Both the position numbers and the translations under genes were made by a program. Under the pieces are notes generated by a model that was not told the DNA's origin, ran no database searches, and saw only the letters and a list, made by a program, of their open reading frames with translations. Shown in pieces: positions 255 to 54,768 of a DNA stretch of 64,000 nucleotides. The DNA is from Oscillospiraceae bacterium (GTDB taxonomy: Bacteria; Bacillota; Clostridia; Oscillospirales; Ruminococcaceae), in assembly GCA_021769725.1 (NCBI GenBank), contig JAETSI010000009.1:1-64000 (forward strand). The letters run 5' to 3'. Numbering within the stretch: the first letter of the stretch is position 1; every line of letters starts with the position of its first letter.

Positions 255-282
255 TTTATATGTGAATTGGATTCATTGTCAA
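255..282 (-). promoter_or_regulatory. Possible outward promoter from E1 copy A
   Basis: On the minus strand TTGACA (277-282, inside the element end) is followed after 16 bp by TATAAA (255-260). It would fire leftward, out of the window. The hexamers are visible; activity is inferred. Confidence 0.35.
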
Positions 283-326
283 CAACTTAAGTGGGGACAT
301 CGTCCCTGCTTAAATTGCCGGCATTG
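274..326. repeat. E1 inverted-repeat element, minimal copy (A)
   Basis: Two outward-facing terminal arms of the E1 family (see 12970, 23662, 26117, 43850, 54514) are joined almost directly. The left arm runs CATTGTCAACAACTTAAG and then GTGGGGAC. After a 4-nt centre an imperfect inverted copy follows, with TTAA and CATTG at its far end. The internal hairpins seen in full copies are absent, so this looks like a deletion derivative holding only the ends. Confidence 0.65.
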
Positions 327-356
327 TCCCTCATCACTTTTTGAAATACATTATTA

Positions 357-385
357 TTGACAAATTATGAATAATAGTGTATAAT
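357..385 (+). promoter_or_regulatory. Sigma-A promoter of the GDPD gene
   Basis: TTGACA (357-362), a 17-bp spacer and TATAAT (380-385) match the vegetative consensus exactly. A 22-bp direct repeat covers the -10 region (about 366-387 and 393-414), giving a second GTATAATAA copy just downstream. Confidence 0.85.
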
Positions 386-428
386 AAAAAATATGAATAA
401 TAGGGTATAATAATGATCTGGAGCTTTT

Positions 429-2237
429 ATGAAGAATTTTTTTAAATCTATGAAAACGTTTGTCAGGGTAATGCCGCATTTCCTGATGTTTGAATTTTTG
501 TATAAATTGTTGCTTGTCGCTGTCGGGGCACCTGTTCTGGCATTTGTGTTCAAGCTTTCCATGTCGGCATCCGGAATAGCCTATCTTTCAGATGAAAGTA
601 TGCTTATATATCTGAAAAGCCCTATAACGCTGATATTTATAGTTCTTGTACTTTTCTGCGCAGGATTTTTTGCATTCGTGGAACTTACGGCGCTTGCCGC
701 CTGTTTTTCATGTGCAAGCCGCAATGAACCGGTATCTGTCGGCGGAATGTTTAGTATCGGCGTAAAAAGTTTCGGAAAGGCATTAAGAGGAATCGGAATT
801 CTGCGTTTCCTGCTTTTCATGCTGTTTATGCCATTTGCGCAGTTTACACTTTCCTCGGGAACTTTCATCGCCCCGATAATGCCCATACTCAGGCGTATTT
901 TTCAGGATTTTGACAGCCGAATGGCAGTGATCGTGTATTTTGTGATACAGATAGTCACTATAATGCTTATTGTCGGAAGAAGCTATAGTTTGCATTATCT
1001 GGTGCTGACGAACAAAAACTTCGGCGAGTGCTGCAAAAAAAGTCTTGAGAAAATAAAGAGAAAAAAGTTTCGTATGGCATTTCAGTTCTTGTTGTGGACG
1101 CTGGTGATCCTCTGCGTTATTGCAGCAGCGACATTTGGCATAAGTTTCCTGATAGTGTATATTATAAAGGGATTTTCACTGCCCGGTAAGGCGTTCAGAA
1201 CTGCACTTCGTGTACTCGTTTATACGATAAGAGTGTTCTCGGCGGTTTCTGCATTTTTTTCCGCACCGGCTATCATGTGCTGGCTTACAGGGAAGTTCAT
1301 GGCTGATCTTGACGAAAATGAGGAGATTATTACACCTGACTGCCGCAGACTTATAAAGCAAAAAAAGAAAAATATCATACTTATCACAATACTGTCCGTT
1401 ATTGGTGTGAGCGCTAATATTTATTATTTTATCGGGGTTTACAGGGGAAATATCAAGATAGACGCAAGTATTCGCAGTACACAGATAAGTGCGCACAGAG
1501 GCTTTTCTCATGATGCGCCGGAAAATACGAAATATGCTTTTGAAGCTGCAATAGAATGCAAAGCCGATTACATCGAGCTTGACGTTCAGCTGACAAAGGA
1601 TGAACAGCTTGTAGTCATTCATGACGATACGCTGAACCGTACCACAAACGGAAAGGGACGTGTTAATAAGTATACGTATGAGGAACTCCGCAGCCTGTCT
1701 GCCGGTGCATGGTTCGGCAGCGAGTATGAAGATGCGGAAATAATGCTGCTGTCAGATGTGCTGGAACTTGTGGATAAAAGATGTATGCTGAATATCGAGA
1801 TAAAAGACATTGGAGATGTAAACCTTGCGGCTGACAAGACCGTTGAACTTGTGAAGGAGTATGGATATACGAAATCCTGCTATATAACGTCGTTTTCATA
1901 TAAGGCGCTCCAAAGGGTGAAATCACGTGAGCCGAAGATAAAGACCGCTCTTATAGCAAATCTTGCCGCTACGGTGAGATATTCGCAGCTTACCGATATT
2001 GACGCTGTGAGCATGAATTATCTTTTTGTAAATAAAAGCGTTGTTGAGTCGGCGCACCAGAACGGAAAACTTATCTTTGTTTGGACTGTTGACCGGAAAG
2101 ATGATATCCGCAGTATGCTGACACTGGGCGTGGATAATATAATAACCAATCGTCCTGATCTGGCGAGGGAGATTGTGAACTCCGACAAGGTCGGCGAAGT
2201 GACACTTACGCTGCTTGAAAAAATTTTTGGAAGCTGA
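429..2237 (+). CDS. Membrane-anchored glycerophosphodiester phosphodiesterase
   Basis: This 602-residue protein has two parts. Residues about 1-340 hold some seven or eight hydrophobic membrane segments, resembling the membrane domain found fused to such enzymes. Residues about 350-590 form a GDPD TIM-barrel domain. Catalytic signatures are visible: His356-Arg357-Gly, an ENT motif shortly after, Glu383-x-Asp385 for metal binding, and His398-Asp. The family hydrolyses glycerophosphodiesters to glycerol-3-phosphate and an alcohol. The membrane part suggests the substrate is a lipid or lipoteichoic-acid-derived diester at the cell surface (inference). It has its own consensus promoter and appears monocistronic. 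Confidence 0.88.
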   Translation: MKNFFKSMKTFVRVMPHFLMFEFLYKLLLVAVGAPVLAFVFKLSMSASGIAYLSDESMLIYLKSPITLIFIVLVLFCAGFFAFVELTALAACFSCASRNEPVSVGGMFSIGVKSFGKALRGIGILRFLLFMLFMPFAQFTLSSGTFIAPIMPILRRIFQDFDSRMAVIVYFVIQIVTIMLIVGRSYSLHYLVLTNKNFGECCKKSLEKIKRKKFRMAFQFLLWTLVILCVIAAATFGISFLIVYIIKGFSLPGKAFRTALRVLVYTIRVFSAVSAFFSAPAIMCWLTGKFMADLDENEEIITPDCRRLIKQKKKNIILITILSVIGVSANIYYFIGVYRGNIKIDASIRSTQISAHRGFSHDAPENTKYAFEAAIECKADYIELDVQLTKDEQLVVIHDDTLNRTTNGKGRVNKYTYEELRSLSAGAWFGSEYEDAEIMLLSDVLELVDKRCMLNIEIKDIGDVNLAADKTVELVKEYGYTKSCYITSFSYKALQRVKSREPKIKTALIANLAATVRYSQLTDIDAVSMNYLFVNKSVVESAHQNGKLIFVWTVDRKDDIRSMLTLGVDNIITNRPDLAREIVNSDKVGEVTLTLLEKIFGS

Positions 2238-2267
2238 TGTTTAGATTCGGCGTTCAAAGGCAAAACT

Positions 2268-2299
2268 AAAAGTAAATGACAAGCAACATTTACTTTTAT
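2268..2299 (+). terminator. A+T-rich hairpin after the GDPD gene
   Basis: A perfect 12-bp inverted repeat (TAAAAGTAAATG at 2268-2279 and its complement at 2288-2299) with an 8-nt loop lies 31 bp past the stop. There is no clear U tract. It may be a terminator or one end of the repeat that follows. Confidence 0.45.
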
Positions 2300-2455
2300 A
2301 TGGAGACTCTGCTCCCAACGGTCGCCCGTGGTCTCACCTGTCGGTTCGGTCGGTGCTTCTCGCTTTGCGAGAGGTCTTCACCGGAGACCCGCACCCCTCT
2401 GTTACTTCATGACATCCCCTAACCGTGGCGTGTTCCCCTTTATTGCAATAAAAGT
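2300..2455. repeat. Intergenic repeat G sharing a module with E1 copy F
   Basis: This non-coding stretch is rich in small inverted repeats. Positions about 2390-2424 (CCCCTCTGTTACTTCATGA followed by CATCCCCTAACCG) closely match, in reverse complement, the extra module inside E1 copy F at about 54575-54630. The right edge, CCCCTTTATTGCAATAAA near 2440, resembles the end of E2 at 31310. It looks like a mosaic of mobile repeat pieces. Confidence 0.5.
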
Positions 2456-2469
2456 AAGTCTTGCTGCCC

Positions 2470-2498
2470 TTGACAAATTTTGTCAGTATGAGTATAAT
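2470..2498 (+). promoter_or_regulatory. Promoter of the first cyclophilin gene
   Basis: TTGACA (2470-2475), 17 bp, then TATAAT (2493-2498): a full consensus match 31 bp upstream of the start codon. Confidence 0.85.
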
Positions 2499-2529
2499 TG
2501 AATAAGAATATATTTAAAGAGGTATAAAT

Positions 2530-3336
2530 ATGAAAGAAGGAAAAAGACTGCTTAAAATTATTCTTATTCTCACGCTTGTCATGGGAGGCCTTACGCTGGG
2601 ACTTCTGTATGCGGAAGGTCAGCGGGAAAAGAATAATACTTATATTACCGTTAATCCCGATACGATGAAGCTTATCCAGCTTGAAGAACCAAAGAACGGC
2701 GATCCCATAGCCATAATCGACACTACAGAAGGCGAGATACGAATGGTACTTTATCCGGAGCAGTCTCCGGAGGCTGTTGCAAATTTTACGAAGCTTGCCA
2801 ACGACGGATATTACGACAACACATATATCTTTGAATCACGTGACGGAACATACTGCGGCGGTGGTACTCCGGCAAAAAACGGTTCTGTGGGCAAGAGCAC
2901 CAATGAACACGTCAAGCGTGAACTTCACCAGGATCTGTGGCCGTTCAGGGGAGCAGTGTGCATGATGCAGACCGATTATGTCCGTACATTCAAGCAGAAA
3001 GTTCTGGGCGGCGGTACTTATTATAACGGCAGCCGTTTCTATATTCTTAATTCCATTGAATTTACCGACGATATGATCAGTGATCTTAAGGAAAATTCCG
3101 CAAGTCAGCAACTTGCAGACGCTTTTGTGGAAAAAGGCGGAATACCTAATTTTTCACAGCAGATGACGATTATCGGGCAGACATACGAGGGATTTGACGT
3201 TGTTGAAAAACTGTCTTCTCTGGAGGGAAAGAAAACAGGAAAATTCTTTACTCCTACAGAAGATGTAATGATAAAATCCATAACCATAAGCACATATTCC
3301 GATGATGAAAACAACAGACAGGCTGAGAAAAAATAG
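2530..3336 (+). CDS. Divergent cyclophilin-type peptidyl-prolyl isomerase, membrane-anchored
   Basis: This is a 268-residue protein with one hydrophobic N-terminal segment (about residues 8-28), so the domain probably sits outside the membrane. Residues about 55-250 follow the cyclophilin pattern: a DTTEGEIR strand, then SPEAVANFTKLANDGYYDN. Where active cyclophilins read FHRV..F.IQGGD, this one reads FESRDGTYCGGG, and GSQFFI becomes GSRFYI. The catalytic Arg and the Gln-Gly-Gly floor are therefore not conserved as usual. It may bind peptide without efficient isomerisation. Its neighbour at 3506 is a canonical cyclophilin, so the two may divide the folding of exported proteins (inference). 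Confidence 0.8.
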   Translation: MKEGKRLLKIILILTLVMGGLTLGLLYAEGQREKNNTYITVNPDTMKLIQLEEPKNGDPIAIIDTTEGEIRMVLYPEQSPEAVANFTKLANDGYYDNTYIFESRDGTYCGGGTPAKNGSVGKSTNEHVKRELHQDLWPFRGAVCMMQTDYVRTFKQKVLGGGTYYNGSRFYILNSIEFTDDMISDLKENSASQQLADAFVEKGGIPNFSQQMTIIGQTYEGFDVVEKLSSLEGKKTGKFFTPTEDVMIKSITISTYSDDENNRQAEKK

Positions 3337-3407
3337 TCACGCTCTACGAATATCGCCGCTGTTTTGCATCCGGTTTGACTGTTTCTAACAAATTTAAGCG
3401 GAAAGTA

Positions 3408-3436
3408 TTTACAAAATGGATTTTTTGTAGTATAAT
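3408..3436 (+). promoter_or_regulatory. Promoter of the second cyclophilin gene
   Basis: TTTACA (3408-3413), 17 bp, TATAAT (3431-3436), about 70 bp upstream of the start. Confidence 0.75.
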
Positions 3437-3505
3437 AAACAGGTTGAGGTATCATACACCTTGTACAATTTAATGTTTCACGTAGAAAATTAAGGAGTGA
3501 AATTT

Positions 3506-4468
3506 ATGTTCAGAAAGACATTAGCAGCTATTCTCTGTATGGTTATGGCATCTACTGCCATGACATCCTGCGGCAAGCACCTTGAGGTGGACGATGACAG
3601 CAAAGATACGTCGGTTTCCGACAATCAGTCCCCCGAAGAAACTACAGCTCCGGCAGGGGACAATCAGGAATCCACTACAGGTGAGAATTCCGGCAGTATG
3701 GATAATAAAACTATAGATATTTCAAGGTTCGCCGACAGATCGGTGCCGGATATTGATACCGAAAAATCAGATGTCAAGAATTTTACTGCTCCCGAAGTGG
3801 GAGATGATATAATCATCATGAAGTTCAAGGGTTACGACGGTGAAGTTAAGATCAGACTTTTCCCTGAATACGCCGAGCTTGGTGTTGAAAATTTTGTCGG
3901 TCTTGCGGAAAAAGGCTATTACGACGGTCTGACAATGCACAGGGTCATGGCTGATTTCATGATACAAGGCGGTGATCCTCTTGGAACGGGTACAGGCGGC
4001 GAATCGCTCTGGGGCGACAAGTTTGACGGAGGCACGTCCGATAAGCTTACTCATGCGGCAGGTACGATCGCATATGCAAACAGCGGTTCAACATCGACCG
4101 ACGGCAGTCAGTTCTATATTGTGACGGGAGAAACATACGACAACGACTATTTGTCATTGCTGGAAAGCAAAGGTTATTCATTCTCCGATGACATAAAGAA
4201 GATACTTGCATCGGCAGGCGGCGCACCATGGCTTGACGGAGGCTATACCATTTTTGGACAGGTATATGATGGACTTGATATTATATTTGCAATACAGGAT
4301 GTTGAAGTATACCAGGGAAATGCTATGAATCCGGAGGTAAGCACTCCTGTTGAGCCGGTTGTTATTGAATATGTAAAGGTCGGAAAATATGATGGTGAGG
4401 AACTGAAATGGTTCATTGCTGACTATATGGGAGAAGATGCTCCCAAAGCAGAAAAAGATACAGAATAA
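3506..4468 (+). CDS. Cyclophilin-type peptidyl-prolyl isomerase lipoprotein
   Basis: I place the start at the ATG at 3506, because the in-frame GTG at 3497 lies inside the Shine-Dalgarno sequence TAAGGAG. The 320-residue product has a lipoprotein signal ending MTS-Cys, then an acidic Ser/Thr-rich linker and a cyclophilin domain from about residue 95. Active-site features are intact: MHRVMADFMIQGGDP with the catalytic Arg, and DGSQFYIVTGE. It should be a lipid-anchored isomerase acting on Xaa-Pro bonds of exported proteins. An insertion of about 25 residues after the FYI motif (LESKGYSFSDDIKK) is typical of larger Gram-positive surface cyclophilins. murA follows after 55 bp. Confidence 0.9.
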   Translation: MFRKTLAAILCMVMASTAMTSCGKHLEVDDDSKDTSVSDNQSPEETTAPAGDNQESTTGENSGSMDNKTIDISRFADRSVPDIDTEKSDVKNFTAPEVGDDIIIMKFKGYDGEVKIRLFPEYAELGVENFVGLAEKGYYDGLTMHRVMADFMIQGGDPLGTGTGGESLWGDKFDGGTSDKLTHAAGTIAYANSGSTSTDGSQFYIVTGETYDNDYLSLLESKGYSFSDDIKKILASAGGAPWLDGGYTIFGQVYDGLDIIFAIQDVEVYQGNAMNPEVSTPVEPVVIEYVKVGKYDGEELKWFIADYMGEDAPKAEKDTE

Positions 4469-4523
4469 TAGAACAAAAGAAAAGAAGCGGAATGCAGAGT
4501 CCGCAATTAAGGAGAGAATCTAA

Positions 4524-5822
4524 TTGGATAAGTTTGTTATAAAGGGCGGCAGACGCCTGACCGGCAGAGTTGCCATAAGCGGTGCAAAAAATGCGGCAGT
4601 AGCCATTCTTCCGGCCGTTATCCTGTCTGATGAGCCTTGTACTATTGAAAACGTTCCTAATATAAGCGATGTTAATATCAGTCTCAGAATCCTCAAAGAA
4701 ATGGGTGCAGCGGTCACGAGTTTGGGCAAGGATGCCTACAGAATAGATCCTACCGGCATAAACAAGGTGTGCGTCCCCTATGAGACAGCAAGAAAAATGC
4801 GTGCTTCTTATTATTTTCTGGGTGCTCTTTTAGGAAAATTCAACAAGGCAAGAGTCTCCATGCCGGGCGGATGTCCTCTTGGCGACCGACCTATCGACCA
4901 GCATCTTAAGGCATTTTCAGCTTTGGGGGCTGAATATACCCTTAGCCAGGGAATGATCGACTTGAACGCTGTCAGTCTCAAGGGAAACCAGATTTTCTTT
5001 GATGTTGTAACCGTTGGCGCAACAATGAATGCTATGCTAGCCGCTGTAAAGGCAGAGGGTCTTACTATCATTGAGAATGCCGCAAAAGAACCGCATATCG
5101 TTGATCTGGCAAACTTCCTTAACTCTATGGGCGCAAATATTATGGGTGCAGGAACGGACGTTATAAAGATAAGAGGAGTAAAGCAGCTTCACGGAACTAC
5201 TTATTCCGTTATTCCCGATCAGATAGAGGCAGGAACATTTATGATAGCAGCCGCCGCTACCAAGGGCGATATTATCGTTGAAAATATCATTCCCAAGCAT
5301 CTGGAATCTATTACAAAGAAGCTGGAGAAGATAGGCGTTAATATAGAGCAGTACGATGATAGTCTGAGAGTATGGGTGGATGGTCCGCTTGTAAAGGCGA
5401 ATGTAAAGACAACGCCTCATCCCGGGTTTCCGACGGATATGCAGCCGCAGATCGCTGCTCTTCTGATCCTTGCAGAAGGAACGAGTATTATCACCGAAGG
5501 CGTATGGGAACATCGTTTCCGTTATGTGGACGAGCTGAGACGCATGGGGGCTGATATTACTGTAAACGGTAAGGTGGCTCTTATCGAAGGCACGGGCAAA
5601 CTTATGGGCGCTCCCGTAAAAGCGTGCGACTTGAGAGCCGGCGCCGCTCTTATTATAGCCGGTCTTGCGGCAAGCGGAATCACTGAGATAGAGGATATTT
5701 ACCATATCGAAAGAGGCTATGACTGCATGGAGGGCAAACTCCGTGGTCTTGGCGCAGATATAGAAAAGGTAAGCGTTCCGGATAAGATACCGGAGCAGAA
5801 GAATGTCCGCTCAGCTGTATAA
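4524..5822 (+). CDS. murA: UDP-N-acetylglucosamine 1-carboxyvinyltransferase
   Basis: This enzyme carries out the first committed step of peptidoglycan synthesis, moving enolpyruvate from PEP to UDP-GlcNAc in the cytoplasm. The 432-residue length is standard. Visible signatures are SGAKNAA near the N-terminus (UDP-GlcNAc/PEP-binding Lys and Asn) and the mobile loop PGGCPLGDRP, with the PEP-attacking Cys117 that fosfomycin modifies. Repeated EPT half-domains are evident. The start is TTG at 4524, eight bases after AAGGAGAG; no upstream ATG fits. Whether it is the MurA or MurZ paralogue cannot be settled without the rest of the genome. Confidence 0.96.
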   Translation: MDKFVIKGGRRLTGRVAISGAKNAAVAILPAVILSDEPCTIENVPNISDVNISLRILKEMGAAVTSLGKDAYRIDPTGINKVCVPYETARKMRASYYFLGALLGKFNKARVSMPGGCPLGDRPIDQHLKAFSALGAEYTLSQGMIDLNAVSLKGNQIFFDVVTVGATMNAMLAAVKAEGLTIIENAAKEPHIVDLANFLNSMGANIMGAGTDVIKIRGVKQLHGTTYSVIPDQIEAGTFMIAAAATKGDIIVENIIPKHLESITKKLEKIGVNIEQYDDSLRVWVDGPLVKANVKTTPHPGFPTDMQPQIAALLILAEGTSIITEGVWEHRFRYVDELRRMGADITVNGKVALIEGTGKLMGAPVKACDLRAGAALIIAGLAASGITEIEDIYHIERGYDCMEGKLRGLGADIEKVSVPDKIPEQKNVRSAV

Positions 5823-5847
5823 AGAGATAATTTTTTGTAAAAAACAC

Positions 5848-5876
5848 TTGACAAATCCATGAGAGTGTGATATTAT
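5848..5876 (+). promoter_or_regulatory. Promoter of the thrS T-box transcript
   Basis: TTGACA (5848-5853), 17-bp spacer, TATTAT (5871-5876). Transcription would start near 5883, just before stem I of the leader. Confidence 0.85.
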
Positions 5877-5882
5877 CATAAT

Positions 5883-6118
5883 GTAATATGAAAAAATCGT
5901 TGATGAGAAAGGCAGTTTCCAGTGCTTTTTCAGAGAGCAGCCGTTTGGTGCAAGGCTGTAAAGCAGGAAATATGCATACCGTCTCTGAGTGCGTTTAATA
6001 CACGCCGGCTGCTCCCGTTACAGAGCCAATGAGATACAGAATTTTCTGTGTGAATCAGGGTGGAATCACGGTTATTTATCGTCCCTTAGCCTTTTTGTAG
6101 GCTTTAGGGGCGATTTTT
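5883..6118 (+). promoter_or_regulatory. T-box leader of thrS, threonine specifier ACC
   Basis: This leader lets uncharged tRNA-Thr switch on thrS. Stem I can be folded by eye: GAGA (5905-5908) pairs with TCTC (5982-5985), and TTTCC with GGAAA higher up. The AGAGAG bulge lies at 5932-5937. The internal loop on the 3' side exposes ACC (5978-5980), a Thr codon. The T-box sequence AGGGTGGAATCACGG (6057-6071) departs from the usual ACCGCGG ending, but its TGGA can pair with a UCCA acceptor end. A terminator hairpin (6080-6112) with a T run closes the leader, 31 bp before the thrS start. Confidence 0.93.
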
Positions 6119-6148
6119 GTTTTATTATTTTGAAAAGGAGAATATATC

Positions 6149-8095: not shown

Positions 8096-8101
8096 CAGAA
8101 T

Positions 8102-12016: not shown

Positions 12017-12949
12017 TCAGCCGCCCAGCCTTATCATTTCGTCAATGCATTTCACTGCGGACGATATAGTTTCTTCGTCCATAATGATCTCACGGTCAGC
12101 ACAGTTTCCCCGTGATATGCTCATAAGAGTTCTGTAAACGTCAGGCAGCGTGGTGATCTTCATATTATGACAGACAATGTCTTTTGTGACAGGGAAAAAC
12201 TGTTTGTCGGGGCAGTCGTACTGCAAATGTTCGGCGATCGAAGTCTCAGTGCCGATAATGAATTCTTTTGCGTCCGACTTTTTTGCAAAGTCGATGATAC
12301 CGGAGGTAGAACCGACGTAATCGGCAAGTTCCACCACCTGCGGTCTGCATTCGGGGTGAACCAGGAAAAGTGCATCCGGATGTTCTGCCTTTGCCGTCAT
12401 GACATCCTTTGCCGTAACAGCCGCATGGGTCGGGCATCCGCCGTTAAGAAGCTTCACGTCCTTTTCCGGGCAGTTTCTCTTTACGAAATCTCCGAGATTG
12501 CAGTCGGGGATAAAGAGAATTCTGTCATTGTCGATAGCCTTTACGATCTTCAGAGCGCTGGACGAAGTTACGCATACGTCGCAAACCGTTTTAAGAGCAG
12601 CCGTCGTATTGATGTAGGCAACGACAGTTCTGCCGGGGTCTTCTGCCTTGACTGCCTCGATAAGCTCCTTGTCCATCTGTTCCGCCATGGGGCATCCTGC
12701 CTTTGGATTGGCAAGATATACGTGTTTTTGCGGAGAAAGGATCTTAGCCGTTTCAGCCATAAAGCGGACACCGCAGAAAAGGATATGTTCATTATCTATC
12801 CCTTTTGCGTCCACGCTTAATTTGTAGCTGTCGCCGGTATAATCGGCGATCTCGGTAATTTCTCTTGCCTGATAGCTGTGGGCGAGTATGGCTGTTCCTG
12901 TTTCCTTTTTCAGCCTGATTATCGCCTCCTGCATTTCACGGACATTCAT
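12017..12949 (-). CDS. nadA: Quinolinate synthase A
   Basis: This [4Fe-4S] enzyme condenses iminoaspartate with dihydroxyacetone phosphate to quinolinate in NAD biosynthesis. The 310-residue length is normal. Recognisable segments are ILAHSYQ, FCGVRFMAETAKIL, NPKAGCPMAEQ, VYINTTAALK-like and CHNMKITTL, with conserved cysteines in the last three regions. nadB and nadC, its usual partners, are not adjacent; hydE and two U32-like genes follow instead. The start has an AGAGGTG ribosome-binding site. A truncated E1 repeat lies between this gene's start and ridA. Confidence 0.94.
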   Translation of the reverse strand: MNVREMQEAIIRLKKETGTAILAHSYQAREITEIADYTGDSYKLSVDAKGIDNEHILFCGVRFMAETAKILSPQKHVYLANPKAGCPMAEQMDKELIEAVKAEDPGRTVVAYINTTAALKTVCDVCVTSSSALKIVKAIDNDRILFIPDCNLGDFVKRNCPEKDVKLLNGGCPTHAAVTAKDVMTAKAEHPDALFLVHPECRPQVVELADYVGSTSGIIDFAKKSDAKEFIIGTETSIAEHLQYDCPDKQFFPVTKDIVCHNMKITTLPDVYRTLMSISRGNCADREIIMDEETISSAVKCIDEMIRLGG

Positions 12950-12969
12950 AATAACACCTCTTTATAAAA

Positions 12970-13045
12970 TAATAATAATGGGTTTCCAAAGGGATAATAT
13001 CCCTTTGGCAGGGGTGTGGGGACGGCGTCCCCACTTAAAGGCTGC
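12970..13045 (+). repeat. E1 inverted-repeat element, left-truncated copy (B)
   Basis: Holds the hairpin CCAAAGGG...CCCTTTGG (12986-13008), the hairpin GTGGGGAC-ggc-GTCCCCAC (13016-13034) and a degenerate right end. The left end and first hairpin are missing. The TTA at 13035-13037, directly after the second hairpin, is the ridA stop codon, so the element forms the 3' border of ridA. Confidence 0.75.
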
Positions 13046-26125: not shown

Positions 26126-26310
26126 CAATTTAAGTAACTCTGTTTCTTATACTCATGTCAAGAGGAAATTTTCTCTCTGTATATTCACCCTAATTGTTCT
26201 TATTGCCCCAAAGGGGTAATAAGAACAATTAATAATGGGATTCCAAAGGTGGGATTCCCCCTTTGGCAGGGGTGTGGGGACAGAGTCCCCACTTAATTTG
26301 TGACATTGAT
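26117..26310 (+). repeat. E1 inverted-repeat element (D), full length
   Basis: About 194 bp. Ends are AATGTCAACAATTTAAG and CCCCACTTAATTTGTGACATT. The first hairpin pairs 26192-26209 with 26213-26230 (one G-T pair); the second is CCAAAGG...CCTTTGG; the third is GTGGGGAC-aga-GTCCCCAC. It fills the gap between ilvB and the terminator behind the small lipoprotein gene. The interval 26074-26396 holds no gene. Confidence 0.85.
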
Positions 26311-26321
26311 TCGATAATATA

Positions 26322-26350
26322 AAAACCTCCGACAGACTGCCGGAGGTTTT
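26322..26350 (-). terminator. Terminator after leuA and the small lipoprotein gene
   Basis: AAAACCTCCG / CGGAGGTTTT stem of ten bp with a T run on the minus strand. It separates the leuA transcript from ilvB, which then needs its own promoter. Confidence 0.8.
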
Positions 26351-26396
26351 GTTCAAGCATCATTGCGTTGATACGGTGAATGTGTATCTGCAAATT

Positions 26397-26501
26397 TTAC
26401 TCAAAGTCCTGTGGGCAGAATGAACCGAAGCGGCAGCCGGAAAGTATAATGACTGCGCTGTTAATAATGACTATACCGGAAAAAGTAATGACCGATTTCA
26501 T
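26397..26501 (-). CDS. Tiny lipoprotein-like peptide downstream of leuA
   Basis: A 34-codon frame begins at the ATG at 26501, just after AAAGGAG, the strongest reason to believe it. The peptide is MKSVITFSGIVIIN followed by SAVIILSGCRFGSFC, a hydrophobic signal with a lipobox-like LSGC and only about a dozen residues after it. It resembles a minimal lipoprotein, or possibly just a membrane peptide. No family is known to me. It is followed by a strong terminator. Confidence 0.5.
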   Translation of the reverse strand: MKSVITFSGIVIINSAVIILSGCRFGSFCPQDFE

Positions 26502-26666
26502 TATTAATGCTCCTTTGCTAAGACTTTGAATATTGCAGCGCCGATATGAACAGCGATACTTATTCTTAAACTTAATTATACCATCTTCGGCAGATAAAAT
26601 CAATACAAAAAATGTATTTTTAAGCATTTTGTTGGATGTTTACAGTTTCCGGCTGTAATGTGCAGG

Positions 26667-43826: not shown

Positions 43827-43849
43827 CGCTATTCTGCGAGTATATATCC

Positions 43850-44041
43850 AATGTTGATGATTAAGAGGTACTGTTCCTCATACTCGTGTTAAAAGGAGCA
43901 TTCCCCTCCGGATATTGATTCTATTTTTTTCATTACTCCTTAATGGGGTAATGAAAAAAATAAAAATGGGTTTCCAAAGGGGATGTACTCCCCTTTGGCA
44001 GGGGTGTGGAGACGGAGTCCCCACTTAGGTTGCAGACATTG
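43850..44041 (+). repeat. E1 inverted-repeat element (E) at the metH 3' end
   Basis: About 192 bp. The left end is diverged (AATGTTGATGATTAAG). The first hairpin pairs 43923-43939 with 43945-43961; the second is CCAAAGGGGatgtaCTCCCCTTTGG, about 20 bp of pairing; the third is GTGGAGAC-gga-GTCCCCAC. The right end TTAGGTTGCAGACATT contains the last codons and stop of metH. Confidence 0.85.
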
Positions 44042-47542: not shown

Positions 47543-47586
47543 TTAACAAATCCTCCTGAAAAACAACTAAAAAATAATTCAACATA

Positions 47587-47615: not shown

Positions 47616-47636
47616 TAAATTTTTGGAATAAATATA

Positions 47637-47666
47637 TTGCAAAAGTAACCGCTTATGTGTTATAAT
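47637..47666 (+). promoter_or_regulatory. Promoter of the ruvC operon
   Basis: TTGCAA (47637-47642), 18 bp, TATAAT (47661-47666). Confidence 0.65.
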
Positions 47667-47737
47667 AATATGGAATGCTGCAAGAACGTACTCCGGATGC
47701 TCCGTATATGTTCCGGCAGCCGTGAAAGGAGAGCCGT

Positions 47738-48226
47738 ATGGCAAAAACGATCAGAATTTTAGGAATAGATCCGGGTTATGCCATAGTAGGATTCGGCGTG
47801 CTGGATTACGACGGAATACGGTTTGTTCCGGTAGAGTACGGCGCAGTGCTGACTGAGGCAAATACACCGTTTCCGGAACGTCTCAGGGCTATTCACGAGG
47901 ATATTGAATATATATTTGATAAATTCCGCCCGGAATGCATGGCGATAGAACGACTGTATTTCACTACAAACCAGAAAACAGCCATTGACGTTGCCCAGGC
48001 AAGGGGCGTGACGGTGCTGTCGGCGGCAAAGAGAGGTATTTCCGTATCGGAGTACACACCTCTTCAGGTAAAACAGTCGGTGGTCGGGTACGGAAAGGCT
48101 GAAAAGCATCAGGTAATGGAAATGACTCGCCAGATCTTAGGACTGGCGCAGATACCACGTCCGGATGACGCCGCCGACGCTCTTGCGATCGCCATATGCC
48201 ACGGGCACACCACAAGATTTAGTTAA
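47738..48226 (+). CDS. ruvC: Crossover junction endodeoxyribonuclease RuvC
   Basis: Resolves Holliday junctions produced by RuvAB. The 162-residue protein has the RNase H-like active site: Asp11 in LGIDPGYA, the conserved Glu in MAIERLYF and the acidic pair in RPDDAADALAIAICH. The ribosome-binding site AAAGGAGAG is strong. It opens a ruvC-ruvA-sseB-ruvB cluster. Confidence 0.96.
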   Translation: MAKTIRILGIDPGYAIVGFGVLDYDGIRFVPVEYGAVLTEANTPFPERLRAIHEDIEYIFDKFRPECMAIERLYFTTNQKTAIDVAQARGVTVLSAAKRGISVSEYTPLQVKQSVVGYGKAEKHQVMEMTRQILGLAQIPRPDDAADALAIAICHGHTTRFS

Positions 48227-48239
48227 GGAACGATGAAAA

Positions 48240-48854
48240 ATGATCTACAGTTTGCATGGACGTCTGGCAGTCAAGGATATTAACTTCGCTGTTGTTGAAT
48301 GCGGCGGAGTCGGCTACGGATGCAGGACTTCATACAATACGGTGTCTCAGCTTGGCGAGATCGGCAGCGATGTCATGCTTTACACCCATCTTTACATAAG
48401 GGAGGACGCTGCGGAACTCTTCGCCTTTGCAACGCAGCAGGAACTGAGCTGCTTCCGCCTGCTTATCTCTGTTTCCGGCGTAGGGCCGAAAGCGGCGATA
48501 TCTGTTCTTTCGGATGTAACTCCGGAAAAATTTGCTTTTCTTGTTGCTTCCGGTGACAGCAAGGCGTTTACCAGAACGAAAGGCATCGGAGCAAAAACGG
48601 CTCAGAGGATAGTGCTTGAACTGAAAGACAAGATATCCTCCGAATCGCTTGGCGGAGCTTTTACAGGCAGTTCCGTATCTTCTTCTCCGTCAGGGATATC
48701 CGGTTCTGATTCGGTATCGGAGGCTCTGGAAGCGCTTATGGTGCTGGGTTATTCTCAGGGAGAGGCAATGTCGGTTCTCGGAAAGCTTGATCCGGCTCTC
48801 AGCACCCAGGATCTTATAAAAGAAACATTACGGCTTATTACAGCCGGAAAATAA
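48240..48854 (+). CDS. ruvA: Holliday junction branch migration protein RuvA
   Basis: The tetrameric junction-binding subunit of the RuvAB motor. The 204-residue protein opens with MIYSLHGRL, has the helix-hairpin-helix segments (LISVSGVGPKAA and TKGIGAKTAQRIVLELKDK) and a C-terminal RuvB-contact domain (SEALEALMVLGYSQGEA) after a serine-rich linker. It follows ruvC by 13 bp. Confidence 0.96.
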   Translation: MIYSLHGRLAVKDINFAVVECGGVGYGCRTSYNTVSQLGEIGSDVMLYTHLYIREDAAELFAFATQQELSCFRLLISVSGVGPKAAISVLSDVTPEKFAFLVASGDSKAFTRTKGIGAKTAQRIVLELKDKISSESLGGAFTGSSVSSSPSGISGSDSVSEALEALMVLGYSQGEAMSVLGKLDPALSTQDLIKETLRLITAGK

Positions 48855-48882
48855 TAAGTTTTAAGAAGGGAAGAATCCAATT

Positions 48883-49614
48883 ATGAATCTCGACGAATTA
48901 TTGAAGGCGGCAATTACCGATCCTACAAAGAGGTCGCTGTTTTTGCAGACCCTCATCAAGAGTGACGTATATGTTATCTGCAAAAATCCCGTGCGGCATG
49001 AGAGAGGCAGAGAAGAAGGCGGAGTCCAGCTGGAGCTTGTTACCACCCAGAACCCGGACGGCGATATCTTTATCCCGTTTTTTACCAGCTACCGTGCTCT
49101 TCAGCAGTTTGCAAAGCGCTACGTTGACTGTTACAAAATAAACTGCCTGAGACTTTTTGATCTTATCCAGTCGGCGTCGGCAGTTCTCAATCCTAATTCT
49201 TACGGCAAGGAATTTTCCTCTCAGGAAATAAAGAGCATACTTATGGTGGCAAGAAACCTTAAAATCAAGGCTATTTCCTACAACGAAGCGGAGATAATCT
49301 CTTACCGTCCCGTTGAACATTCCGTAAGTCATATAACAAAGGCTGCAAGCAAGTTTCTTTCAAAGCAGCCCAATGTTGACCGTGCGTTCATCATGGAAAT
49401 GGTAAAGGGTTGCGAAAAGCCGCAGATACTTATGGTTCTTGATATGATGGGTTCGACGAGAAAGCTTTTCGTTCCCCTCTCAAAGTATCTTTCAAGAACC
49501 GTGAAAAACAACGAACATCTCTGCTTTATCAGTTACGAGCAGGATATGGGAAAAAAGGCGGCAGGAACGGTAGAACCGTTCTATGTACGCAAAAAGCGTT
49601 ATTTCGAGAAGTAA
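48883..49614 (+). CDS. SseB-like protein inserted between ruvA and ruvB
   Basis: A 243-residue soluble protein. The N-terminal half (about 1-115) has the SseB-type pattern: LKAAITDPTKRSLFLQTLIKSDVYVI, then FIPFFTSYRALQQF. The C-terminal half (about 145-240) resembles the second SseB domain. SseB was named for a serine-sensitivity effect in E. coli and its molecular role is unclear. The position inside the ruv cluster, with 28 bp and 40 bp gaps, makes co-expression with DNA repair genes likely, but a repair role is only suggested by context. Confidence 0.75.
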   Translation: MNLDELLKAAITDPTKRSLFLQTLIKSDVYVICKNPVRHERGREEGGVQLELVTTQNPDGDIFIPFFTSYRALQQFAKRYVDCYKINCLRLFDLIQSASAVLNPNSYGKEFSSQEIKSILMVARNLKIKAISYNEAEIISYRPVEHSVSHITKAASKFLSKQPNVDRAFIMEMVKGCEKPQILMVLDMMGSTRKLFVPLSKYLSRTVKNNEHLCFISYEQDMGKKAAGTVEPFYVRKKRYFEK

Positions 49615-49654
49615 GCGGCATTGATATGCATTGAAAGGCGGTGATCGTCACATC

Positions 49655-50707
49655 ATGATACAGACAGAGGATATGGAATTTGCTCCGAGGATAATCACTC
49701 CTGAAAATACCGATGAGGACGGCGATATTGAAGTAAATCTCAGACCACAGACGCTTCACGAGTATATCGGACAGGACAAGGTAAAGGAAAACCTTGCCAT
49801 ATATATAGAAGCGGCAAAGCGCAGAGGAGAACCTCTGGATCATGTACTGCTGTACGGACCTCCGGGTCTCGGAAAAACGACGTTGTCGGCTATTATAGCT
49901 CACGAATTGGGGGTAAATCTCCGTGTGACAACGGGACCTGCCATCGAAAAGCCGGGCGATCTGGTGTCGCTGCTTACCAGCCTTTCGGACAACGACGTGC
50001 TCTTCATTGACGAGATACACAGGTTGTCCCATGCTGTTGAGGAAATACTTTATCCTGCAATGGAGGACAGAGTGATCGATATCATTATCGGCAAAGGTCC
50101 GTCGGCCAGGTCGATACGTATGGATCTGAAACCGTTTACTCTTATAGGAGCGACAACAAGAGCGGGTCAGCTTTCCGCTCCTCTCCGTGATCGTTTCGGC
50201 GTTATCCAGCGTCTGGAATTGTATACAAAGGATCAGTTGACCGATATCATCCGCAGAAGCGCCATGATCCTCGGAATTCCCTGTGAGACCGACGGCGCAT
50301 CGGAAATTGCCGGACGTTCACGGGGAACGCCGAGAATTGCCAACAGACTTCTGAAAAGAGTGCGTGATTTCGCCGACGTAATGGGAAACGGTCAGATAAC
50401 GCAGCAGATAGTTTCCATAGCTCTTGGCCGTCTCGATATTGATGAACTGGGACTGGACAGTCTTGACAGGCGTATGCTTGAAATGATAATAAAAGGTTAC
50501 GGAGGCGGTCCGGTGGGACTGGAAACGCTTGCTTCGGCGATAAACGAGGAATCGGTCACTCTGGAGGATGTCTGTGAGCCGTTCCTCATGCAGCTCGGAT
50601 TCCTTGGCAGAACTCCCAGAGGACGTGTGGCGACAAAGCTGGCGTATGAGCACCTTGGTTGTGCAAGACCTGATGACGGCGTCAGCGGACAGCTCAGTTT
50701 CGGATAA
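49655..50707 (+). CDS. ruvB: Holliday junction branch migration ATPase RuvB
   Basis: The hexameric AAA+ motor that drives branch migration with RuvA. I place the start at the ATG at 49655 ([13 protein letters not shown]); an in-frame TTG at 49631 lies upstream of the GGCGGTG ribosome-binding site. The 350-residue sequence has Walker [10 protein letters not shown], Walker [10 protein letters not shown], sensor [18 protein letters not shown] and a C-terminal winged helix ([13 protein letters not shown]). Confidence 0.97.
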
Positions 50708-50719
50708 AGGTCACTTGGA

Positions 50720-51274
50720 ATGAGATTTGCAGGAAAACGGAATTTCCGGTATAATTCCGGCAGAAAAGAAGTTCCGGAGTTCGGCAGGATGATAAACGGT
50801 CAGGCGTGCGGTGCGGTATCGGGATTCCGGTATGGCATATGCCCCATGAGTTTCAACGGCTGCGAGGTCATTGCCGTCCATAACGCCCTTGCCTGGCTTG
50901 GCAGACCGCAAAAGCTTGCGGATATTGCATTTCGCATGGAACGCTTTCGGGTGCTTATGGGATTTTTCGGATGTAATGCCTATAAAATAGGCAGAGCGCT
51001 CTCTTATTTCGGTGCGGAGAATGTCAGAAGCCGGGAAACAGAGGGGAAGTCTGCTTATATAGTTGTTTTCTGGACAAAAAGACCTTTTTTGTCGTCGATC
51101 CATACGGTCTTTTGCGTAAGGACAGACAGCGGAACAGAGGTCTACAACAGCAGCAACGGATGTACAGAGATGAAAATATATAAGGATATCAGGCAGTATA
51201 TAGGCAAAAGAAAGCCAATAGCCGTATATTCTGTTAAGGCAACACCGCATAAAGATTGCACATCATCTGCTTGA
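50720..51274 (+). CDS. Putative papain-fold (C39-like) protein
   Basis: A 184-residue protein without a signal peptide. It contains a candidate Cys-His-Asn triad: Cys in MSFNGCEVIAVHNAL (about 49-54), His in SSIHTVFCVR (about 130) and an Asn/Ser stretch in VYNSSNGCTE. This layout recalls peptidase C39-like or papain-like proteins of clostridia, some involved in peptide processing, but the substrate is unknown. It is 12 bp behind ruvB. Its last 13 or so codons and stop are read from the left end of E3, so the original C-terminus may have been replaced. Confidence 0.6.
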   Translation: MRFAGKRNFRYNSGRKEVPEFGRMINGQACGAVSGFRYGICPMSFNGCEVIAVHNALAWLGRPQKLADIAFRMERFRVLMGFFGCNAYKIGRALSYFGAENVRSRETEGKSAYIVVFWTKRPFLSSIHTVFCVRTDSGTEVYNSSNGCTEMKIYKDIRQYIGKRKPIAVYSVKATPHKDCTSSA

Positions 51275-51397
51275 ATATTTTCCGTCATTTTTCACATAAA
51301 TTTCTTGACATACGGCAGTATGCCTGCGAAATTTCTGTACAATTTGACGAAAAATCTTACTGCGCATCTGCCGCACAATCTTTGTGTGGTGTTGCCT
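51237..51397. repeat. E3 inverted-repeat element, 161 bp, at the end of the C39-like gene
   Basis: The ends are imperfect inverted repeats of about 33 bp. The left opens AGGCAACACCGCATAAAG; the right, in reverse complement, opens AGGCAACACCACACAAAG. The interior is A+T-rich and has no gene. The left end encodes the last codons and TGA of the upstream gene. This looks like a MITE-type element. The interval 51275-51437 contains nothing else I can identify. Confidence 0.75.
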
Positions 51398-51437
51398 CAA
51401 ATAAAAAGAACAAAGAGAAACAAAGGAGATAAATAAA

Positions 51438-52787
51438 ATGTCAGGACTGTTCGGAACAGACAGCGCAAGAGGTCTTGCCGTGACGGAGCTTTCCTGCGAG
51501 CTTGCTATGCAGGCAGGAAGAGCAGCTGCGGAGCTTTTTGCGAAAGAACAGGGAGAAAAAATAATTGTTGCCAAGGACGGCGCATTGTCCTCGGCAGTGC
51601 TTGAAGCGGCAGTCTGCGCCGGAATATGCTCCTCCGGCGTTGATGCTGAAACCGTGGGAGAAATTTCCGCAGCGGCAGCTTCGTTCATTGTCAGAGAGCA
51701 TGAGGCCGCCGCCGGAATAATGATAAGCGAGGCTTCCGGAATTCCGGGAGCAAGCGGAATAATCATATTTGACCGTGAGGGACTGCGTCTCAGTGAGGAT
51801 GCACAGCTTGAGGTTGAGGAGTATATCTATTCCACGTCCGGGGAGAGACGGCGTTTTGAGAATATCGGCAGAATGCTCAGCAGCGATACGGCTGCTGACG
51901 AGTATATCAGCCATATAAAAGCGATACCGGCAGTAAATCTGACGGGAATGAGGGTAGCTGCAGTATGCGGAAGCGGCTTTCTGAAAAGAGCCGTGGAAAA
52001 GCTGTTTTCTGCTATGGGCGCAGAAGTGTCTGTTCTTCCGGAGCAGGAAAGTGTGTCCGAACCGGATATAACTCCCGGCATAACCGGTCTTGAACGGCTG
52101 ATGGACTTTGTAGCAGACGGGGATTTCAGCTGCGGTCTTGCAATTGAGGGCGACGGCAGCAGCTGTCTTGCAGTGGACGAAAACGGTATGCCTGTTGACG
52201 GCGAGACGCTCCTTGCTATAATCGCAGGATTTTGCCGTGAAAAAGGTCAGCTTAAAGATAATGCGATCGTAGTAAATATCATGAGCAGTCTCGGACTGAT
52301 GAATTTTGCAGAAGAAAACGGAATAAAGGTCGTCACTTCCGGTTCCTGCGGCAGAAGCGTTCTGGAGCGTATGCTGGAGGGCGGGTATAATCTGGGCGGC
52401 GGTCAGAGCGGACATATCTTTCTGACCGATTATTCCCCCTGCGATGATGGTCTGCTGTGCGGTGCAAAGATTTTAGAGATACTTAAAACGACAGGGAAAA
52501 AACTTAGTGAACTTGCAGGAGAAATGAAAAAGCTCCCCCAGATATGCCTGAATGTGCGCATAAGCGACAGCGGACGTGAAGTCTGGAAAAACGACGAAGC
52601 GATCACCGGGCTTATTGAGCATTACGAGGAAGAACTCGGCAGCGGCGGCAGGATCATAGTCCGTGAAAGCAGCGGAAATGCCCCTTTTATCCGTGTTATG
52701 GCAGAGGGCAGTGATTTCGGCAGGATAAACGAGATGGCTATGGATATCGCACAGCGCATCAAGGAAAGATGCAGATTTTATAATTAG
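51438..52787 (+). CDS. GlmM/phosphohexomutase-like protein with altered active site
   Basis: A 449-residue protein with full-length alpha-D-phosphohexomutase similarity, opening LFGTDSARGLA. Each of the four active-site loops is changed. The phosphoserine loop SASHNP reads SEASGIPG, with Ala at the usual Ser position in an ungapped alignment (Ala99). The metal loop DGDGDR reads EGDGSS. The sugar loop GGEQSGH reads GGGQSGH. The phosphate loop RxSGTEP reads RESSGNAP. It is therefore probably a pseudoenzyme derived from phosphoglucosamine mutase, or it has a new activity. The fold appears intact and the frame is unbroken. The real glmM is not in this window. Confidence 0.75.
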   Translation: MSGLFGTDSARGLAVTELSCELAMQAGRAAAELFAKEQGEKIIVAKDGALSSAVLEAAVCAGICSSGVDAETVGEISAAAASFIVREHEAAAGIMISEASGIPGASGIIIFDREGLRLSEDAQLEVEEYIYSTSGERRRFENIGRMLSSDTAADEYISHIKAIPAVNLTGMRVAAVCGSGFLKRAVEKLFSAMGAEVSVLPEQESVSEPDITPGITGLERLMDFVADGDFSCGLAIEGDGSSCLAVDENGMPVDGETLLAIIAGFCREKGQLKDNAIVVNIMSSLGLMNFAEENGIKVVTSGSCGRSVLERMLEGGYNLGGGQSGHIFLTDYSPCDDGLLCGAKILEILKTTGKKLSELAGEMKKLPQICLNVRISDSGREVWKNDEAITGLIEHYEEELGSGGRIIVRESSGNAPFIRVMAEGSDFGRINEMAMDIAQRIKERCRFYN

Positions 52788-52799
52788 GTGGGTTGAATA

Positions 52800-53681
52800 T
52801 TGAGAACCGCAGATAACTGGAAAGACTATTTAATACTTGATACATCCGACGGAGAAAAACTGGAGACATGGGGAGGAATAAGCCTTGTGCGGCCCGATCC
52901 TCAGATAATCTGGAAAACCGACAGAACAGATCCCCTTTGGAACAGCGCCGACGGGCACTATCTCCGCTCGAATCAGGGCGGCGGTAAATGGGAATTCCGT
53001 CGGAAGCTGCCGGAATCCTGGTGCATTTCTTACAGGGAACTGAAATTCAATATTCGTCCTACAGGTTTCAAGCATACGGGACTTTTCCCGGAACAGGCTG
53101 TAAACTGGGACTTCATGGCGGAAAAAATAAAAAATGCCGGCAGAAAGATAAGCGTGCTGAATCTTTTTGCCTATACGGGCGGAGCAACCCTTGCCTGCGC
53201 TGCCGCAGGAGCAGAAGTATGCCATGTGGACGCCTCAAAGGGTATGGTGCAGTGGGCAAGGGATAATGCAGCAGCTTCCGGACTTTCCGAAAGACCCGTG
53301 CGCTGGATCGTGGACGACTGCGAGAAGTTCATTGCCCGTGAGATACGCCGTGGCAGACGATACGACGCTGTAATAATGGATCCCCCCAGTTACGGCAGAG
53401 GCCCCGGAGGAGAGGTCTGGAAGCTTGAAAACTGTGTCTACGATCTCGTAAAGCTCTGTTCCGGAGTTCTTTCTGAAAACCCGCTTTTCTTTCTGATAAA
53501 CAGCTATACCACCGGACTTTCACCGTCGGTTATGGGCTATATTCTGGGTACTGTTCTCACTGGAAAATTCGGTGGCAGTGTGACCTTTGACGAAATAGGT
53601 TTGCCGGTAAAGTCCACCGGAATGACGCTTCCGTGCGGCTCAACGGCGATATGGGAGAATAAAAATGAGCAGTATCATTAA
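52800..53681 (+). CDS. Class I SAM-dependent methyltransferase (RlmI/RlmK-like)
   Basis: A 293-residue protein resembling rRNA m5C-type methyltransferases. SAM-binding motif I is [19 protein letters not shown] (about 120-138), followed by [17 protein letters not shown] and the catalytic-type DPPSYGRGP (about 197-205). An N-terminal PUA domain like that of RlmI is absent. The start is TTG at 52800 behind TAGGTGG. It overlaps ecfA1 by 17 bp, so translation is coupled. The target, most likely rRNA, is inferred. Confidence 0.82.
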
Positions 53682-54513
53682 AATAGAGGATCTTCATTTC
53701 AGTTATGACTCTGACGGTGGGAATGAAGTTCGTGACGAAGTGCTGAAAGGCATAGATCTCACCATAGAGGAAGGTGAATTTGTAGCCGTCCTGGGTCACA
53801 ACGGTTCGGGAAAGTCTACCCTGGCAAAGCATCTAAATGCTATTTTGCTTCCCTCAAAAGGAAAAGTTATCGTTGACGGTATCGATACGGCAGATGAGGG
53901 CAGGCTCTTTGATTTGCGCCGCCGTGCAGGAATGGTTTTCCAGAATCCTGATAATCAGATAGTCTCCTCGATAGTTGAGGAGGATGTTGCATTTGCCCTG
54001 GAAAATCTCGGTGTTCCTTATGAGGAGATGCGGCGTCGTGTGGACGAAGCGCTGAAATCCGTCAATATGTATGAATACCGCCTGCATTCTCCGGCTCAGC
54101 TTTCCGGCGGTCAGAAACAGAGGGTCGCTATTGCCGGAATAATCGCCATGCAGCCGAAATGCATAATTCTTGACGAGCCGACGGCGATGCTTGACCCCAG
54201 CGGCAGAAAAGAAGTCATGGCGACTGTAAAGCGCATGAACCGTGAACAAGGCATTACTGTGGTTCTTATTACCCATTATATGGACGAGGCGGCTCAGAGC
54301 GGACGTGTGGTCGTTATTGACAAGGGCAGGCTGATAATGGACGACAAGCCGGAAAAGGTCTTTGCACAGGTCGGACGGATGAAAGAGATCGGTCTTGACG
54401 TGCCGCAGGTGACGGAACTTGCTTGGGAACTTAAAAAAGCCGGATATGATATCTCACCCGAGATCATCACCGAAGACCAGTGCGTGGAAGCACTGCTCAG
54501 GCTCATCGGCTGA
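53665..54513 (+). CDS. ecfA1: Energy-coupling factor transporter ATPase EcfA1
   Basis: One of two ATPases that power ECF vitamin and cofactor importers. The 282-residue sequence has Walker [10 protein letters not shown], the Q-loop [10 protein letters not shown], the signature [13 protein letters not shown] and Walker [12 protein letters not shown]. The C-terminal domain is of the EcfA type. S components are not encoded here, so this is the shared group II energising module. E1 copy F separates it from ecfA2. Confidence 0.95.
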
Positions 54514-54768
54514 TAATATCAACAACTTAAAGTGGGGATGCTGTCCCCACACCCTTGTCAAAGGGTGACTCCCCACAGTGTGGGGAGATGTCACGAAGTG
54601 ACAGAGGGGACGGGCGCCGGTTAGGCAAATCCCCCCTTTGAAAACCCATTATAAATTACATTCATTACCCCGTAAAGGGGTAATAAATGTAATCAGAGTG
54701 AGTGTTCATAGAGAAGATTTCCTTTTGGCATGGACGTAGGAAACAGAACCACGTAAGCTGCTGACATT
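54514..54768 (-). repeat. E1 inverted-repeat element (F) between ecfA1 and ecfA2
   Basis: About 255 bp in inverted orientation relative to the other copies. The end TAATATCAACAACTTAAAG follows the ecfA1 stop directly; the other end reads AAGCTGCTGACATTA. The variable hairpin pairs 54655-54671 with 54677-54693. An additional module of about 70 bp (54575-54630), containing ACTCCCCACA/TGTGGGGAG and GTCAC-gaa-GTGAC hairpins, is shared with repeat G at 2390. Confidence 0.85.

Follow-up and report, generated by a model that had tools for sequence, protein, structure and literature searches.

The DNA described here, referred to as the window, is a stretch of 64,000 nucleotides from an Oscillospiraceae bacterium (assembly GCA_021769725.1, contig JAETSI010000009.1, positions 1 to 64,000 of the forward strand). 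It carries six copies, designated A to F, of a repeated element, E1, beside genes that include ridA, ilvH, ilvC, ilvB, leuA, glyS, metH and ecfA1. E1 is a miniature inverted-repeat transposable element (MITE): it is short, occurs in many copies, is bounded by terminal inverted repeats and has no transposase gene. The full-length unit is ~192 bp, and alignment places CAATGTCAACAACTTAAG at both ends as inverted repeats of ~18 bp. From left to right, the terminal repeat is followed by a spacer of ~60 bases with little structure and then by three hairpins: H1, a 16-bp stem; H2, CCAAAGGGG..CCCCTTTGG; and H3, GTGGGGAC..GTCCCCAC, which lies near the right end. Throughout, the right end is the end that carries H3. 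The copies in the window, with the parts of copy D, are as follows.

275..~326, strand not assigned: copy A, a remnant of ~52 bp with the inverted repeat and an H3-like hairpin, without H1 or H2, found as a pattern match (ATTGTCAACAACTTAAG)
12940..13034, plus strand: copy B, partial, model positions 63-179 only; 72.1 bits
23662..23824, plus strand: copy C, lacking the inner half of H2 and of H3; 111.1 bits
26117..26308, plus strand: copy D, full length; 207 bits
26117..26134, plus strand: left terminal inverted repeat of copy D, from sequence and alignment
26192..26230, plus strand: H1 hairpin of copy D, a covarying stem
26243..26266, plus strand: H2 hairpin of copy D (CCAAAGG..CCTTTGG)
26274..26292, plus strand: H3 hairpin of copy D (GTGGGGAC..GTCCCCAC)
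26292..26308, minus strand: right terminal inverted repeat of copy D
43849..44041, plus strand: copy E, full length, with a 9-bp direct repeat at its flanks; 174.3 bits
54514..54769, minus strand: copy F, full length, with a nested repeat of ~60 bp; 165.6 bits
54569..54629 (approximate limits), strand not assigned: nested unrelated repeat (GGGGAGATGTCACGAAGTGACAGAGGGG type) in H2 of copy F, with a similar insert in other copies

The original prediction held that these are six copies of one family and that, in the five whose orientation can be judged, the same end faces the 3' end of the upstream gene. Family sequence is present at all six positions, but only D, E and F are whole, and copy A is not among the listed model matches. 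The right end does lie at the stop codons of four genes. It abuts those of ridA (copy B, 0 bp, at 13035; ridA assigned with NCBIfam TIGR00004) and ecfA1 (copy F, 0 bp), is 1 bp from that of ilvH (copy C, whose left end points toward the ilvC start), and in copy E the metH stop falls inside the right terminal zone (-17). Copy F is inverted together with its gene, as had been predicted, and the sister genome G131 has a copy with the best-matching body in the same place and orientation. Copy E lies between the convergent genes glyS (left) and metH (right), so that each end faces a 3' end, and a gap of 73 bp that contains a native terminator separates its left end from glyS. The left end of copy D faces the ilvB start, and 358 bp separate its right end from the leuA stop; given this gap and an intervening terminator hairpin, seen by eye because the range of our detector is shorter than the gap, copy D does not cap leuA.

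To place these copies in the context of the family, we used a covariance model with 20 copies as input. In the window's genome (G000) it gave 91 matches at E<=0.1, which we merged to at least 55 loci; the count is a lower bound, with 150 of 1049 first-look candidates scored. Copy D alone as query gave 52 matches. In pattern searches of the same genome the inverted repeat was found 13 times with at most one mismatch and never in the reversed control, and 49 times against 24 with three mismatches. Paired cells make up 98.7% of the H1 stem, and both partners have changed in 12 of its 16 pairs. Over the entire structure, none of 500 shuffles reached the observed measures, and the signal was lost when partner columns were shifted by 1-3. 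The terminal arms of the 20 copies match at 0.735 within a copy and at 0.625 +/- 0.018 between copies (0 of 2000 shuffles). The predicted RNA fold, with the right end read first, has a z of -9.2 in one copy and of -6.4 in copy F. The consensus structure was derived from one of the aligned copies, and template switching between stem arms can also yield paired changes; covariation alone is therefore not proof of an RNA function. Many contigs of G131 (e.g. C17, C5, C33 and C74) terminate within an E1 copy; E1 probably breaks assemblies, so that copy numbers are underestimates.

In total, 232 loci were examined in G000 and three relatives, G131, G074 and G033. G000 contributed 55 loci after opposite-strand duplicates had been dropped and two split copies joined. 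From G131 we used 59 of 64 merged loci, dropping one contig-edge copy and four at <=46 bits; 10 of the 59 have no gene beyond the right end. The 68 loci of G074 came from 118 matches, and 65 have genes on both sides; opposite-strand duplicates, two partial copies at the edges of stretches, three loci with near-equal scores on the two strands and those below 45 bits were dropped. The same rules gave 50 loci from 81 matches in G033, where two near-equal loci were dropped.

The two ends of E1 differ in their relation to stop codons. For copies of at least 80 bits, and counting in all four genomes every end that faces a gene 3' end, the stop codon falls inside the terminal zone (-22 to -1) at 34 of 99 right ends and at 2 of 83 left ends (Fisher, 1.2e-8). 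Of the copies in the window, the 34 include E but not B, C, D or F. The prediction that the stop codon lies in the right end or within a few bases of it thus extends to the four genomes. Omission of six apparent orthologue duplicates, chosen by eye from C-terminal peptides and sites, leaves 28 of 93 right ends (p=4e-7), and omission of G000 leaves 24 of 70 right ends against 2 of 68 left ends (p=1.4e-6). By genome, the right-end counts are 10/29 (G000), 4/22 (G131), 8/25 (G074) and 12/23 (G033), and the left-end counts, in the same order, are 0/15, 2/23, 0/25 and 0/20. The median distance to the stop codon is 9 bp from right ends and 34 bp from left ends (p=3e-8), so that distances are not random: stops are tied to the right end and not to the left. 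The right end is the nearer one at 24 of 33 convergent sites (p=0.014), and tight tandem placements (-22..25) number 42 for right ends and 17 for left ends (p=0.0015, pooled). As a control, ends that face a start have pooled medians of 85 (right) and 97 (left; p=0.14). Erosion of the terminal repeat is frequent where the right end faces a gene, and the stop codon then adjoins H3; three copies read TAA-GGGGAC-NNN-GTCCCC without a gap. Taken together, these data show an end-specific relation to stop codons, clear in G000, G074 and G033 but weak in G131. As the two terminal repeats resemble each other when intact, insertion blind to the element body does not easily explain the asymmetry.

Native terminators are distributed unevenly about the two ends. 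With a relaxed detector (hairpin plus T-tract; distances >150 or < -40 omitted from the tally), a terminator separates stop codon and element at 9 of 92 right ends and 23 of 73 left ends (p=0.0006); taken genome by genome, the difference is significant only in G000. For comparison, 74 of 168 3' ends without an element have one (G074 and G033 stretches only; right ends against this background, p=3e-9). A stricter detector gave 7 of 99 and 19 of 83 (p=0.003). Looking inward from the ends, the detector found a terminator within 200 nt in 31 of 182 end-directions (13/99 right, 18/83 left). With stop codons tied to the right end and terminators scarce there, a 3'-end role for the H3 end is supported. 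We also considered H3 as a separate native terminator type and rejected this, as, in the G074 and G033 stretches, exact GGGGAC-N3/4-GTCCCC hairpins number 79 and 68 of these adjoin H2; 11 are without H2.

The ends of E1 point to its origin. In G062, another genome of the genus, an insertion sequence (IS) has the same 18-bp sequence, CAATGCCAACAACTTAAG, at both ends, one mismatch from E1, and a 10-bp flanking direct repeat. Its 420-aa frame matches NF033592, a model of IS4 transposases (161.7 bits), as well as PF01609, both over cut-off, and has the Y(2)R(3)E(6)K (YREK) motif, YFLRWGIETVYDTLK, at residue 283. Further frames behind this transposase may belong to a nested IS5-type element. In a table of PMC2266710 the IS4 subgroup is entered with ends -AATR--------WTW---- and duplications of 10-13 bp, and CAATGTCAACAACTTAAG and the 10-bp duplication fit this entry; an initial guess of an IS231 origin was dropped on the same grounds. 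E1 differs in having no transposase, and beyond the terminal repeat it has no resemblance to the G062 IS. Of 125 genomes of the genus, 9 have the terminal repeat with at most one mismatch, the window's own among them. In the window's draft genome only distant IS4 relatives were found, and no close relative of the G062 transposase, although a repeated IS may be unassembled in it. An IS4-type insertion sequence with ends ATGTCATTAAGCTAAG and a tip similar to E1 lies at 1014-2631 of locus L071 in G000, and might mobilise copies such as those in loci L009 and L025. As to target sites, 6 of the 39 copies that span the model lie between inverted-repeat arms at <=1% of the permuted null, and several such sites look like terminator stems split by E1. 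Nine IS ends were inspected by eye, with no statistic attached: four lie directly after a complete GC-rich hairpin and two more after one arm. Empty sites occur in G011, G073 and G078 (among ten of thirty loci listed) and in G033.

We favour, with moderate confidence, a reading in which E1 is an IS4-ended, non-autonomous MITE of Ruminococcus whose H3-end hairpins can replace the 3'-end signals of genes. The targets of E1 would include sites with dyad symmetry, such as the loops of terminators and hairpins like its own. It would arrive in near-random orientation, and its ends would diverge in behaviour after landing. A right end would set a strong hairpin (H3, then H2) a few bases from the upstream stop codon and stand in for the gene's 3'-end signal, the transcript being stopped or protected there. 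The native terminator, and often the terminal repeat, could then be lost, leaving the stop codon beside H3. No strong hairpin lies close to the edge of a left end, and genes facing this end would keep a gap and, more often, their native terminator. Between species, sites would be kept and occupants replaced. The observations themselves are the family, its structure and covariation, the matching IS4 ends with a 10-bp duplication in a relative, the distances that differ by end, the scarcity of terminators and the differing occupants of shared sites. From these we infer an RNA 3'-end function, the loss of native terminators after insertion, mobilisation by a transposase of the G062 type and the means by which occupants are replaced.

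Several observations weigh against this reading. The asymmetry is weak in G131, where zone stops are 4/22 against 2/23, median distances 21.5 and 28 (p=0.33) and tight tandem placements 6:6; three left-facing copies of this genome lie <=6 bp from a stop at sites that have a right end in G000, and its right ends lie closer to starts as well (p=0.004). Without G000, tight tandem placements fall to 27:15 (p=0.09). Right-facing gaps are shorter, so that fewer terminators are expected from length alone, and this explains part of the terminator depletion. The G000 alignment has no U-tract after H3 or H2, the mark of a textbook intrinsic terminator, which makes ordinary intrinsic termination doubtful; if the right end does end messages, it may act by blocking an exonuclease or through Rho. 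A clear direct repeat of 9-10 bp is retained by only 2 of the 39 model-spanning copies. Because terminal repeats are worn, a stop "inside the repeat" is so placed by model position. Finally, genes were called with our own dicodon caller, and the G074 and G033 stretches were picked for having E1 matches.

A more far-reaching proposal is that Ruminococcus uses E1 as a transposon-derived, interchangeable gene-end cassette: the H3 end would have replaced many terminators, sites would be conserved while copies are swapped, and selection would keep the stems paired, giving a shared and renewable 3'-end signal. This is possible, and we advance it tentatively. The system offers a natural experiment on mobile DNA becoming gene punctuation: its two ends are alike except chiefly for the hairpin behind each, and only one of them is common at stop codons. 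Should RNA ends confirm it, a parasite would have become a frequent 3'-end signal in gut bacteria.

We consider it rather unlikely that E1 is instead a neutral parasite, accumulating downstream of genes where it is tolerated, with hairpins that serve transposition or are by-products, and with an asymmetry that reflects a functionless detail of insertion or deletion. The balanced orientation outside G000 (below) would fit such an element, and template switching between arms could account for the stem changes. Similar terminal repeats should nevertheless not give zone stops as unequal as those found at right and left ends across the four genomes, nor should terminators be scarcest where the right end faces a gene. 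The enrichment of pneumococcal repeats between convergent genes is explained in neutral terms in a passage of PMC3049150.

Comparison of shared sites bears on how copies change. G131 is a sister genome, 92% identical over ilvBH, and has an element upstream of ilvB in the same place and orientation as G000, and a right-end remnant beside the ilvH stop. With both flanks aligned, nine sites hold model-spanning elements in the same orientation in G000 and G131, and two more are partial; at four sites the orientation is opposite, with flanks collinear within 0-10 bp. Six same-orientation and seven inverted pairs passed the filter between G074 and G033; we accepted two of the inverted pairs on alignment, and doublets or poor flanks account for two or more of the others. 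Rows with a single aligned flank were excluded, as was C84:43849/C22:6896, labelled inverted by the script but without a convincing alignment. The four inverted sites of G000 and G131 and the two accepted ones of G074 and G033 are what would be expected of a DNA switch, in which recombination flips the segment between the inverted repeats and orientation is reversible. A flipped copy should, however, match its counterpart as the best orthologues do. Mutual best-match bodies (4 + 4 in the two genome pairs) have identities of 0.84-0.955 and all share the same orientation, whereas best matches are absent among the 11 inverted pairs. The identities of these pairs are 0.75-0.83, against a mean of 0.78 between G000 and G131 copies, and one pair, from G074 and G033, visibly involves the insertion of a copy into an older element whose ends differ. 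The case against flipping is weakened by seven same-orientation pairs that are equally dissimilar (0.70-0.84) and by the rank difference in G074/G033 alone, which is not significant (p=0.13). On balance a switch is very improbable, and simple in-place inversion is unlikely from the body identities, though not for every site. The simplest reading suggested by these alignments is that copies are replaced, in either orientation, rather than flipped; the route may be nested insertion, gene conversion or re-insertion.

Orientation was counted only for elements between co-directional genes. In G000, the genome sampled by the original prediction, 27 elements have their right end toward the upstream stop and 9 their left end (p=0.004). 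The corresponding ratios in the relatives are 15:14 (G131), 21:22 (G074) and 16:18 (G033), giving 79:63 when pooled (p=0.21) and 52:54 without G000. Orientation is thus largely what random placement would give outside G000, but not within it, and a fixed direction is not a property of the family. The highly oriented insertion first proposed, in which the transposase orients E1 so that its right end faces the upstream 3' end, would account for the G000 ratio; the near 1:1 ratios of the three relatives, and shared sites whose differing occupants show both orientation relations, leave it only a slight chance. What matters is which end meets the stop codon, not a constant orientation, and in this sharper form the idea of punctuation survives.

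That idea had a second half, in which an outward TTGACA of the terminal repeat starts the next gene. A TTGACA-like box (5/6 match) is retained by 50 of 142 start-facing ends (<300 bp from a start). Among ends that retain it, a -10 match of 4/6 at 16-18 bp is no commoner at start-facing than at stop-facing ends (15/50 vs 10/49, p=0.36). Copy D, upstream of ilvB, has TTGACA, 17 bp and TATAAA, and is plausible from its sequence as a single promoter case for that gene; promoter punctuation as a family property is scarcely credible. The 3'-end part of the punctuation role is therefore supported, by the end-tied stops and the scarcity of terminators, and the promoter part fails.

No paper on E1 was found in the open-licence literature searched; its nearest precedents are REP and YPAL. 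In passages of PMC3733652, the REP, PU, BIME and REPIN sequences (GTAG-, CGTC-tagged) are palindromic, of high copy number and mostly downstream of genes, many REPs lie <20 bp from 3' ends, and their GTAG termini often supply the stop codon. REPs are 20-40 bp and linked to TnpA-REP (PMC8266576), whereas E1 has terminal repeats of IS4 type, three hairpins in a set order and abutment by one particular end; at ~192 bp it falls outside the REP and REPIN families by length, with no TnpA-REP search made. YPAL of Yersinia, as outlined in PMC2229807, is 168 bp long, forms hairpins, has targets that span or adjoin dyad symmetry and possibly affects the upstream transcript. Its description sets it apart: its repeats are internal and its duplications 3 to 26 bp, while the terminal repeats of E1 match an IS4 element. 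For ERIC, extracts of PMC2229807 and PMC3049150 give an orientation-dependent effect on upstream mRNA, but also short TA-type termini and a role held to destabilise upstream RNA, which again differ from E1. RUP, BOX and SPRITE of pneumococcus, Correia/NEMIS of Neisseria and EFAR of Enterococcus (covered through other papers) are likewise MITE-like, folded and intergenic, several with IS-matching ends (PMC3049150, PMC2229807, PMC3733652); they have other hosts and mobilising IS, and end-specific abutment to stops goes unmentioned in the portions of these texts that describe them. By analogy, E1 may work like REP, YPAL or ERIC, differing in length, ends and likely mobiliser.

At the gathering score, Rfam gave no match for E1 in the window, where its only hits were two T-box leaders. 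Among eight element loci at E<=1, it gave four tRNAs in L003 and three matches in L024 that fall well short of the gathering score, of which two overlap the element.

5891-6089, plus strand: T-box leader, above the Rfam gathering score
28394-28645, minus strand: T-box leader, above the Rfam gathering score

Inspection by eye of the interval 26310-26520, between leuA and ilvB, shows a strong hairpin of terminator type and a short reading frame on the minus strand, which recur in the ten loci listed; they are possibly a leader peptide or attenuator of ilvB.

Variants of E1 were also seen. Mini-elements of ~50-55 bp, with two terminal repeats around an H3-like core, lie at C153:25856-25906 and C84:65558-65612 of G000 (loci L049 and L060) and in L063. 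The same hairpin body with quite different terminal repeats (about CCGTATTTACTTTTATA or CTGACATTTCC) occurs at C46:105766 and C202:109358 of G000 and at C209:127574, which suggests, from these sequences, that the body may pass between different types of transposon end. A pattern scan of a wider contig collection, from which records near the window's own may have been omitted, found two places on one contig of an uncultured Ruminococcus metagenome-assembled genome. A second repeat family, with GGGGAGATGTCACGAAGTGACAGAGGGG and additional palindromes, was seen inserted at or close to H2/H3 of the E1 copies inspected, at 54569-54629 of the window and in L022, L030, L057 and L068.

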